From Chitinivibrio alkaliphilus ACht1 (GTDB taxonomy: Bacteria; Fibrobacterota; Chitinivibrionia; Chitinivibrionales; Chitinivibrionaceae): a stretch of DNA of 64,000 nt. The stretch lies in contig NZ_ASJR01000005.1 of NCBI RefSeq assembly GCF_000474745.1, positions 62,001 through 126,000 of the forward strand. The letters run 5' to 3'. The notes beneath the pieces are model-generated. The model ran no database searches. It worked only from the letters and a program-made list of their open reading frames with translations, and was not told the DNA's origin. Shown in pieces: positions 11,315-62,549 of this stretch (its first letter is position 1; each line of letters begins with the position of its first letter). The position numbers and the translations under genes were made by a program.

Positions 11315-11811
11315 CTACGGCAGATTAAAGATATTTTTCTTTATTTTGCTATACATTTTACGCCGCTCCATCTCATGGAGATTTTTTTTGATATCAAGGA
11401 GTTTTGCTTTTCCCGCTGCTTTTATTTTGTCAGGAGCAGCTTCAAGGGCAGTGAAAAAACTCGCAAGATGTTCCAGCTCACCCTTAAGCTGGTCTCGATG
11501 GTTATGAAAACGCTTTTCTTCAAGCTTTGCCACGACAACCGCAGCCTCATCCAGCATCTTGCGATATCTCTCTGTCTTATGTCGCACAGACTGCACACGT
11601 TGCTTGACAATTTTGGTAATTTCTCCTTTTATTTTCTCCACATCAGCCGCAGAGGCCTTCGGGGTAATCTGGATACCATCTAACCCATTGGCAACAAAAC
11701 GTTCGGTGATTCCCAAAATCTCCTCTGCCTCTTGGCTCGCATCACGCAAAATATCCAGATGGGTTTCCACATCTTTTTTAGTTGATAGTCGATAAAGTTA
11801 ATTTTTGTCAT
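11315..11811 (-). CDS. Coiled-coil protein apparently made by a -1 frameshift
   Basis: The long frame (11315-11770, 151 residues if a GTG is used) has no good start or ribosome site. Upstream, in frame 0, AAGGAG and five bases precede an ATG at 11811 that reads MTKINFIDYQLKK. At the end of that peptide the codons CTA AAA AAG contain the heptamer A-AAA-AAG (plus-strand 11773-11779). A -1 slip there joins it exactly to the long frame (DVETHLDILRDASQEAEEI), giving about 165 residues. Without the slip, translation ends after about 44 residues. The protein is helical and charged with coiled-coil character, and no family was recognised. Either a programmed frameshift or a one-base homopolymer error in the sequence would explain it. 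Confidence 0.55.
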
Positions 11812-11857
11812 TATAGCTCCTTCGCTCATGCCAGCCGTAGTATATCATAGACTGGAA

Positions 11858-11880
11858 TTAAAAAACAGGGGACCTCCCCT
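11858..11880 (-). terminator. Intrinsic terminator of the phosphohexomutase gene
   Basis: On the minus strand the stem AGGGG pairs with CCCCT around a four-base loop (plus-strand 11867-11880). It is followed directly by GTTTTTTAATT. The hairpin overlaps the stop codon of the gene ending at 11879, so termination is immediate. Confidence 0.75.
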
Positions 11881-13330: not shown

Positions 13331-13906
13331 ATGGAACGAGCAACCCGTGCCGATCTTTCACTTATTGTACACATCCTATCCACCTGTTTTTACCATGACC
13401 CCTACATCCGGTGGCTTCTTATGACAGAAAAAAAAGAGTCCCTTCCCATACACCATCTGATGCGCTGCATTGCCGACATACTCTTTCGCGTTGGAGATAT
13501 ATATGTCACACCGGGCAGAGAGGGGGTTGCTCTTTGGGATACAGAAGCAAGCTCACTCTTCTCTGTTCAGACACTCCCTGCCTACCTACGCCTCATACTC
13601 CACCTTGGACCACAACGGTTCATCCGTGCCTATACAGCCAGTACAGAAACGGCAAAACGACTCCCTGAAGGACCATACACACACCTATTCATGATCGCCG
13701 TGCTCCCCCAATACCGTCGGCACGGGTGGGCTCGCTCACTCATTAGCCCCATGACCGAAGACTCCCGTACCCATCCTCTCTATGTTGAAACAGCAACAGA
13801 ACAGAATAGGAAGATGTATGAGTCTCTCGGATTCATTTGGTTTGATACGATCTACCTAGACACCAAATCACCTCTCTATTTTCTGCGGAAGACTCTCCCT
13901 TCATAA
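13331..13906 (+). CDS. GNAT-family N-acetyltransferase
   Basis: A 191-residue protein with GNAT features. An N-terminal strand (ATRADLSLIVHIL) is followed by an acetyl-CoA pyrophosphate loop in IAVLPQYRRHGWARSLI (the R/Q-x-x-G-x-A pattern at about 132-140) and the C-terminal YESLGF motif. The substrate cannot be told; the family acetylates small molecules, antibiotics or protein N-termini. GGAG lies seven bases upstream of the ATG. The gene is divergent from the phosphohexomutase and its last six bases overlap the end of the minus-strand barrel gene. Confidence 0.75.
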   Translation: MERATRADLSLIVHILSTCFYHDPYIRWLLMTEKKESLPIHHLMRCIADILFRVGDIYVTPGREGVALWDTEASSLFSVQTLPAYLRLILHLGPQRFIRAYTASTETAKRLPEGPYTHLFMIAVLPQYRRHGWARSLISPMTEDSRTHPLYVETATEQNRKMYESLGFIWFDTIYLDTKSPLYFLRKTLPS

Positions 13907-15064
13907 ATACCACCGGATTCCCCCGTATACCATACGATGAGCCGAGGAAAACTCTGCAGAATCTCCGCCGATACCACCCTGAAAAGCTGCTGAAAGGACA
14001 ATATTGTCCCGCCGCCGCAAACTGGTTTCCACCATGGCACCCACAGATACGGAGGGATCTTCCACTGCTGCCAGCACATGCGTAGACAGCAAAGTAAGGG
14101 GGGTAATTTCAAAGCTTTTCTGCACACCGCCGTAGTGGGTGTTTTTCAGATATATCTGGCCCTGTGTACGCGCGGTGATATAGTCTTCTGCCGATAGGGA
14201 GGCACCGTTATAGTGATACTCCCCGCGCAGGGTCAGCCGCGGGGTAAAACGATACAGCAGCCCCGTGGTGAGACGGAAGTAGTCATCATCCTCATGGTCC
14301 TCTTTTTCCGAATTTATTGAAAAAACATGGGCCATCTCCAGGGAAAATCCCGCATCGAGAATGCTTTTTTCGTAGTCTATCCCGGCAAGGACATTTTCCT
14401 GAAATACAATACATATGGGAGAAATATCCCCCAGGGTGGAATGGACAAGCCGTGTCCGCATGAAGGCGGCACTCTTTTCCCATGCAAAGGAATCTCCCCC
14501 CACATACCCCGCTTCAAGCTCATTCATGGCCCCCCAGGGCAAACGAAAGACAAGGCCATCCACACCCCGCCGAAATTCACTGTCTACGGCAGTAAAGGTG
14601 AAGGGGGCAATAATATCCGTGGGACTTACAAAAAAGGAGCTTCCCCATCCAAGGGACTGCCGCCCCAGGGTAAGACGCCCCGCACCGGCGGGGACACTGA
14701 TATAGAGACGATCCAGATCGTGATATATGACAGAAGCAGCATCATCTCCGGGGGAATCGGGCAGAAGGACCGCAGAAAAATCTCCAACCCGATACCCCTC
14801 GTGGGGGATTTCATTGTATCCCCGAAGGTCAGACGGTGTATTTTCGCTGTATAATCGGGGAGCCAACTCATACACAGCTCCACCACGTATCCCCCGGGGG
14901 AAAAAGAACTCCCCCTCGCCACGAATCCCCGTACGAAGAACCGACCATGACTGATCATCCCGGACAACACCCATGGGCCATGCACGAAGGGAGCCATGCC
15001 AATCCACCTCCACGGCACCAAGCCACTGTATACACACAAATACGATAATACTACCCAACAGCAC
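13901..15064 (-). CDS. Outer-membrane beta-barrel protein of the FtsX-LolA cassette
   Basis: A 387-residue secreted protein with an N-terminal signal segment (LLGSIIVFVCIQWLGAVEV). A long run of alternating hydrophobic/polar strands follows, ending in GGIRWYL, a typical barrel terminus. The motif LTLGRQSLGWGSSFFVSPTD resembles barrel proteins paired with LolA-like/RND lipid transport sets (DUF1302-like). The start is a GTG at 15064 with GAGGAGG about eight bases upstream, overlapping the ATPase gene by 14 bases. It is the last gene of the cassette and would be its outer-membrane end. The exact family was not recognised with confidence. Confidence 0.68.
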   Translation of the reverse strand: MLLGSIIVFVCIQWLGAVEVDWHGSLRAWPMGVVRDDQSWSVLRTGIRGEGEFFFPRGIRGGAVYELAPRLYSENTPSDLRGYNEIPHEGYRVGDFSAVLLPDSPGDDAASVIYHDLDRLYISVPAGAGRLTLGRQSLGWGSSFFVSPTDIIAPFTFTAVDSEFRRGVDGLVFRLPWGAMNELEAGYVGGDSFAWEKSAAFMRTRLVHSTLGDISPICIVFQENVLAGIDYEKSILDAGFSLEMAHVFSINSEKEDHEDDDYFRLTTGLLYRFTPRLTLRGEYHYNGASLSAEDYITARTQGQIYLKNTHYGGVQKSFEITPLTLLSTHVLAAVEDPSVSVGAMVETSLRRRDNIVLSAAFQGGIGGDSAEFSSAHRMVYGGIRWYL

Positions 15065-15758
15065 GGGAGCCCCCCTCCTCCGTGTCAGAGTCGATCATTC
15101 CATCTCGAATAACCACGGTACGGCGGGCCCGTTCCATAATCCGGGGATCATGGGTGGAAAAAAGAAAGGTCATATCCTCCTCGGCATTGAGGGACTGCAT
15201 CATATCAAGAAGGGCGGCACCGGTCTTTGAATCAAGGTTTGCCGTCGGTTCATCGGCAATAATAATTTGCGGTCGTGATGCCATGGCCCGGGCAATGGCA
15301 ACACGCTGCTGTTGTCCCCCCGAAAGTTTTGCGGGAACCCGTTTTTCATACCCCGCAAGGCCAACCTCTGCCAGGATACGCGCCACCCGTTCCTGTCTGG
15401 TAGCCTTGTCAACCCCCTGAAGCAGCATAATATACTCCACATTTTCCGCCACGGTAAGAACGGGGATGAGGTTGTACGCCTGAAAAACAAAGCCAATATT
15501 GTCACGACGGAAAAGGGAGAGCTCGCGGCTGCTCATGGCCGACACATCCACGCCGTGAATACAGACCTTTCCCGAGGTGGGACTGTCAATACCGGTGATA
15601 CAGTTCATGAGTGTTGTTTTTCCCGACCCGGAGGGACCCACAACGGCGGTAAATTCGCCCTTTTGTATGGTGAGATCAACCCCACGCAGGGCGTGGACGG
15701 CAACCTCTTTTTTTCCATAGGTTTTTGTGATATTTTTTGTAGTAATAACGGTATTCAT
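15051..15758 (-). CDS. ABC transporter ATPase, LolD/MacB branch
   Basis: A 235-residue ABC ATPase. Walker A is GPSGSGKTTLMN, the Q-loop region is GFVFQAYNLIPVLTV, the signature is LSGGQQQRVAIARAM, Walker B is IIIADEPTANLD and the H-loop is FSTHD. The branch is that of ATPases energising FtsX-fold permeases (LolD, MacB). Two such permeases precede it in the same operon. It is distinct from the lolD at 2178 and is therefore a second, dedicated system. The stop overlaps the barrel gene. Confidence 0.88.
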   Translation of the reverse strand: MNTVITTKNITKTYGKKEVAVHALRGVDLTIQKGEFTAVVGPSGSGKTTLMNCITGIDSPTSGKVCIHGVDVSAMSSRELSLFRRDNIGFVFQAYNLIPVLTVAENVEYIMLLQGVDKATRQERVARILAEVGLAGYEKRVPAKLSGGQQQRVAIARAMASRPQIIIADEPTANLDSKTGAALLDMMQSLNAEEDMTFLFSTHDPRIMERARRTVVIRDGMIDSDTEEGGSRAVG

Positions 15759-61413: not shown

Positions 61414-62549
61414 TGTGCGGCACCTTCCACCATGGTGGGACGAACCCTCATTCCCCGAAGCGCATCGCGTACGGGCTCAACAACAACCGTATCACCGGCA
61501 GAGAGCCCCTGGGTGATGTAGACCTGCTCCGTACCTTCATAGGCCAGGGTAACCTCCCGGGCAAGGAGGGCACCATCTACAATACAATACACCCTATTTG
61601 AATCCTGTATCGCATCACGGGGAAGCGATACCCCGTAGAGCGGAGTGCCGGAGAGCCGTACAGAAACATACTCCCCCGGATGAACCCCCGCTGATAGCGG
61701 GTCTTCAAGGCGAACAAAGAAGGAAAACCCTTGCCGTGTAGGAGAAACGACTGGGGAGATACGTTCGACCCGCCCCTCCGCACGGGTCCCCTTTGGAAGA
61801 ACGACCTCTGCGGGCATGTCATCCCTCAGAAAGGATCGTTGACGGTGTGACGCGGACAGTTCAACATAGGCGGTATCCGTACGAAGAATCCGTCCAACAC
61901 GACTATGCCCCCCCACGGACGCCCCCGGTGAAATATCCGCCTCAAGAACCACCCCATCAAAGGGTGCACGATAGGTATGGCGTCGATACCGTAAGAGATT
62001 TTTTTGATACTCATAATATAAGCGCGGTATGTCATATCGAATAACAACCATTCGCTCACGGGGCGATTCCATGGCAGGAAGCGGAGGAAGATGAAGCCCC
62101 TCAAGTGAACTAAAAAACTCAGCCCACTTCTCATATGCATCGGGAATATCACGACGAATCTCCGGCAGAAGCCGGCTTACTCCATGATGTATCTCTGCCC
62201 GGCGGCTCTGAAGGTCATAATAGGTCTCCCGCCCATCAAGCTGATAGAGGATATCCCCAGCGGAAAAACGCTGCCCCGGGCGAAAACGAAACTGCGCATC
62301 CCGTACCCGTCCGCCAACCTCTGTGGAAACAGCAATATCCTGTGAAGAGGTTACACGCCCGGAAAAAGAGAGGCTCGGTGCAATACTATCGGGAAACACC
62401 TGCTGCGCAAATAGTTGTTGCGTCTGTTCTCGAGGACTTCGTCGCCCCCCCGGCGGTTCGGTATCACTGATCTGTTGATACAGAAAATACGCCCCCAGAA
62501 GAAACACAGCTGGAATTCCCCATTTTTTCAATCGCGGTGCAATAGGCAT
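61410..62549 (-). CDS. RND periplasmic adaptor (membrane fusion protein)
   Basis: About 379 residues. An N-terminal TM anchor (WGIPAVFLLGAYFLYQQI) precedes a split lipoyl/barrel-sandwich domain (VGGRVRDAQFRFRPGQRFSAG and APFDGVVLEADISPGASVG) with a helical hairpin between. A beta-barrel domain and a membrane-proximal domain (VSLPRDAIQDSNRVYCI) follow. It links the RND pump to the TolC duct. A TTG at 62570 would add seven residues; the ATG at 62549 has AGGGAAG just upstream. It is the first gene of the pump operon. Confidence 0.88.
   Translation of the reverse strand: MPIAPRLKKWGIPAVFLLGAYFLYQQISDTEPPGGRRSPREQTQQLFAQQVFPDSIAPSLSFSGRVTSSQDIAVSTEVGGRVRDAQFRFRPGQRFSAGDILYQLDGRETYYDLQSRRAEIHHGVSRLLPEIRRDIPDAYEKWAEFFSSLEGLHLPPLPAMESPRERMVVIRYDIPRLYYEYQKNLLRYRRHTYRAPFDGVVLEADISPGASVGGHSRVGRILRTDTAYVELSASHRQRSFLRDDMPAEVVLPKGTRAEGRVERISPVVSPTRQGFSFFVRLEDPLSAGVHPGEYVSVRLSGTPLYGVSLPRDAIQDSNRVYCIVDGALLAREVTLAYEGTEQVYITQGLSAGDTVVVEPVRDALRGMRVRPTMVEGAAQ

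Follow-up and report, generated by a model that had tools for sequence, protein, structure and literature searches.

A frame break in a small orphan gene of Chitinivibrio alkaliphilus is probably due to one A missing from a homopolymer run

On the minus strand of contig NZ_ASJR01000005.1 of Chitinivibrio alkaliphilus ACht1, a short and well-initiated reading frame ends its coding at a run of A residues, where a long frame that has no convincing start of its own takes over. Does the ribosome change frame at this site, or has a single base been lost from a gene that is otherwise continuous? The original prediction favored the former, and proposed dnaX-type -1 frameshifting on a perfectly phased heptamer. 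The features at issue lie within the window, by which we mean the whole 64,000-nucleotide stretch analyzed here (positions 62,001 to 126,000 of the contig), and are as follows.

11817 to 11822, minus strand: Shine-Dalgarno (SD) sequence AAGGAG, recognized from the sequence, 5 nt upstream of ATG 11811
11773 to 11811, minus strand: leader, the 13 initial codons from ATG 11811 to CTA AAA AAG, with a coding score of +3.25 in its own frame
11773 to 11779, minus strand: AAAAAAG, containing an A6 run (likely A7 in the organism); the frame-break point, where the coding signal changes frame
11757 to 11774, minus strand: weak 7-bp hairpin of -5.7 kcal/mol, probably irrelevant
11315 to 11773, minus strand: long frame, 152 codons and a stop, forming the rest of the gene; score of +5.35 for 11770-11717, no family match

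The start of the leader is as originally described; AAGGAG and ATG 11811 open a 13-codon peptide, ATG ACA AAA ATT AAC TTT ATC GAC TAT CAA CTA AAA AAG, and the heptamer is phased A_AAA_AAG in this (0) frame. An AAGGAG N4-9 ATG arrangement is found at 24 of the 224 predicted gene starts in a 397-kb sample of the genome, and its overall frequency is 8.8e-5 per strand base. To score coding potential we used a three-periodic model trained on long ORFs from those 397 kb. Of true coding windows of equal length, 39% reach the leader's score, compared with just 0.1-0.2% of windows that are out of frame and 0.9% of those that are intergenic. Moreover, in a scan of 844 short ORFs with an SD and ATG across the sample, it ranks second-best among homopolymer-joined leaders with a long coding frame. 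Over the 18 codons that follow the A-run (11770-11717), the score is +5.35 in the long frame and -9.46 in that of the leader. Since the leader scores as coding in its own frame and the long frame takes over the signal beyond the run, the frame change at the A-run is real in the assembly.

A -1 slip at the heptamer leads, as proposed, into the long frame, which begins GAT (11773), continues GTG GAA and has a stop ending at 11315; counted from GAT, it has 152 codons. Joined in this way, leader and long frame yield a predicted fusion of 165 aa, a length that our recount reproduces. The 0-frame product had been put at 44 residues, and recounting gives 43 aa from ATG 11811 (or 49 aa from ATG 11829); the 30 codons by which it extends past the heptamer score -10.8, i.e. 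they carry no coding signal. With the two parts fused as LKKD, the leader and the body have hydrophobic moments that lie 8-13 degrees apart, an agreement that chance gives about 7% of the time and that is weakly suggestive of one continuous amphipathic helix. Coding potential and, weakly, amphipathic phase support the proposal that both frames, the well-initiated one and the one lacking a start, belong to a single gene some 165 codons long.

A single A-run break must be set against the frequency of such breaks in the assembly, which comprises 2,591,328 bases in 99 contigs. A frame-switch scan over the 397-kb sample of stretches called 20 candidates, of which six coincide with runs of 6 or more, where 5.7% would be expected (p = 0.0007). 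Several of the 20 are gene-end or gene-overlap effects, and we counted only the three with intact relatives. The recD gene (exodeoxyribonuclease V alpha; G000:C1:2309-4121, L092, and positions 2309-4121 of L026) is divided near a T7 run between two frames, one of which covers positions 29-133 of TIGR01447 and the other 146-596; it occupies one frame in relatives G001, G003, G005 and G009. An HD-domain gene (G000:C6:4869-6124, L080) is interrupted by a one-base shift at an A7 lysine run, and is a single frame in G003 and G005, matching over nearly its whole length; this break is a close parallel to the A-run site. A PHP/ACT gene (G000:C8:17270-18114, L094), which combines histidinol-phosphatase-like and ACT parts, breaks at a G6 run and lies in one frame in G002, G003 and G004. 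Extrapolated from these three confirmed cases in 397 kb of 2.59 Mb, the assembly may carry perhaps 20 such breaks. We infer that these three arose in sequencing and are not true mutations; in either case, breaks of this kind make the A-run site ordinary. In a separate locus (G000:C4:1257, L032), a gene whose product has a LacI-type ligand-binding domain may have its 3' end broken at a C7 run.

The presumed sequencing platform of the strain would be compatible with such errors. C. alkaliphilus ACht1 is listed with 2.6 Mb in 99 contigs, and its genome is credited to Sorokin et al. 2014 (PMC4704652). Roche GS FLX Titanium was the platform used for Chitinispirillum alkaliphilum ACht6-1, which belongs to the same phylum and was isolated from a soda lake (PMC4814513), and ACht1 was probably sequenced by 454 as well. 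Assemblies from 454 data contain homopolymer frameshifts that favor A and T and longer runs (PMC3277595). On this presumed platform, the likeness to the present locus is a one-base indel within a run, splitting a gene into two frames, and A and T runs are those hit most.

Programmed -1 ribosomal frameshifting at A_AAA_AAG, giving the 165-residue protein from the 13-codon leader, would account for the same arrangement, with a well-formed start for the leader and none for the long frame. The heptamer is perfect and correctly phased, and is identical in sequence and phase to that of E. coli dnaX. In E. coli dnaX an SD-like element lies about 10 nt upstream of the heptamer; no such stimulator is present at that distance here, where the preceding bases are ATCGACTATCAACT and the sole upstream SD, 37 nt away, belongs to the start codon. 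Nor is there a stimulatory stem-loop some 5-8 nt downstream. The 7-bp, one-bulge hairpin noted earlier does exist, but overlaps the heptamer rather than following it; its stem starts on the heptamer's last two bases, and would thus already be inside the ribosome. The folding of this region is ordinary relative to shuffled sequences (z = -0.83). Two further differences from E. coli dnaX are the non-coding 0-frame product described above and the presence in this genome of a gene for tRNA-Lys(CUU), alongside three for tRNA-Lys(UUU); as is known for E. coli, tRNA-Lys(CUU) should reduce slippage on AAG. The organism's own dnaX is a single 619-codon frame, with A_AAA_AAG missing at the E. coli-type place. 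Moreover, in-phase A_AAA_AAG is common in ordinary genes, with 40 copies within predicted genes of the 397-kb sample (about 1 per 10 kb). Likewise, 68 genes of E. coli contain the heptamer, and ribosomes normally shift frame spontaneously only rarely, at 1e-4 to 1e-5 in vivo (PMC9307594). The sample also contains 28 in-phase xxA AAA AAA Gxx sites in coding sequence, each of which becomes the same heptamer on loss of one A. The product of that loss is an in-phase xxA AAA AAG with its downstream codons in the -1 frame, for which selection is unnecessary; a phased A_AAA_AAG is what an in-phase AAA-AAA lysine pair gives unaided when it loses one A. Because the loss of one A yields the heptamer automatically and copies are common in ordinary genes, the heptamer is no independent evidence for programming. 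Finally, no orthologue that might show conservation was found among 168 genomes of the phylum, which returned coiled-coil-like matches only (best E 0.002 per genome). Of the dnaX-type proposal, then, the heptamer and its phase stand, while a stimulator at working distance and a coding 0-frame extension are both lacking, and we regard programmed frameshifting as unlikely. A variant in which six A's are real and obligatory -1 slippage expresses a lineage-specific helical protein would combine a prfB-like design with a dnaX-type heptamer. Like prfB (release factor 2), the locus has a short leader frame joined to a long frame without its own start; in prfB, however, the shift is +1 and uses an in-frame UGA together with an SD-like element, whereas here it would be -1 on a run of A's, and an early stop is missing. 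We consider this variant quite improbable.

Two other readings dispense with ribosomal slippage. The long frame might be translated alone from GTG 11770 or TTG 11716, the leader having arisen by chance, in which case a frameshift is unnecessary. An AGGAG lies 3 nt upstream of TTG 11716, and genes of this organism often want a clear SD (109 of the 224 predicted starts in the sample). Against independent initiation, GTG 11770 has no SD upstream, the coding signal already begins before TTG 11716, and the leader's combination of SD, ATG and coding-like composition is rare in out-of-frame or intergenic DNA; we regard such a start as unlikely. Alternatively, the six A's could be real and the gene rescued by RNA polymerase slippage, or subject to phase variation through changes in run length. 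RNA polymerase is known to slip on runs of A in other bacteria, and the HD-domain gene provides another A-run break in this genome. Runs of six are, however, short for efficient RNA polymerase slippage, and the other breaks also fall at G and T runs, a better fit to base-calling errors; we hold this reading to be very unlikely indeed.

The locus is most probably one intact 165-codon orphan gene (11811-11315, minus strand) from which one A has been undercalled in the assembly or lost by a real one-base deletion. Its frame in the organism would be unbroken, reading CAA CTA AAA AAA GAT GTG GAA across the run and encoding a small all-helical orphan protein. By dropping one A of an A7 run, the assembly would have broken this frame and created the in-phase A_AAA_AAG as a by-product; a true one-base deletion in the sequenced strain would give an identical picture. 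We base this verdict on how often homopolymers break genes in the assembly, together with the absence of frameshift stimulators. It is tempered by the length of the run, since A6 is shorter than the T7 and A7 of two confirmed breaks, although not shorter than the G6 of the other. The A6 site would nonetheless be one of the assembly's homopolymer breaks, and seven A's, a result that the original prediction had itself named as fatal to frameshifting, are the likeliest truth. More generally, in drafts from homopolymer-prone sequencing a phased heptamer alone, without conservation or reads, is no ground for proposing programmed frameshifting.

Pfam and NCBIfam searches of the long-frame protein returned nothing of note. 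Its AlphaFold2 model, made from the single sequence, consists of three long helices with a mean pLDDT of 80.8, and Foldseek matched this only to generic helix bundles, none at E 0.001. A weak PDB sequence match to a chemotaxis transducer (E 0.0039) was dismissed as coiled-coil noise. A search of the five-genome family for the protein found nothing at E 10, and a search of the collected genome contigs for an orthologue gave no match.

The gene is flanked by a glmM-like gene and by one for an msbA-like transporter. The best same-family matches to these two neighbors do not adjoin such a gene in the stretches read. Elsewhere in the window, a 387-aa ORF on the minus strand (13901-15064), with no Pfam or NCBIfam match, adjoins an ORF at 15051-15758 that resembles an ABC-type ATPase. 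The palindrome AGGGGACCTCCCCT (window 11867-11880), bordered by T-runs on both sides, lies where the glmM-like gene ends, ahead of the 165-codon gene, and may be a two-way terminator.
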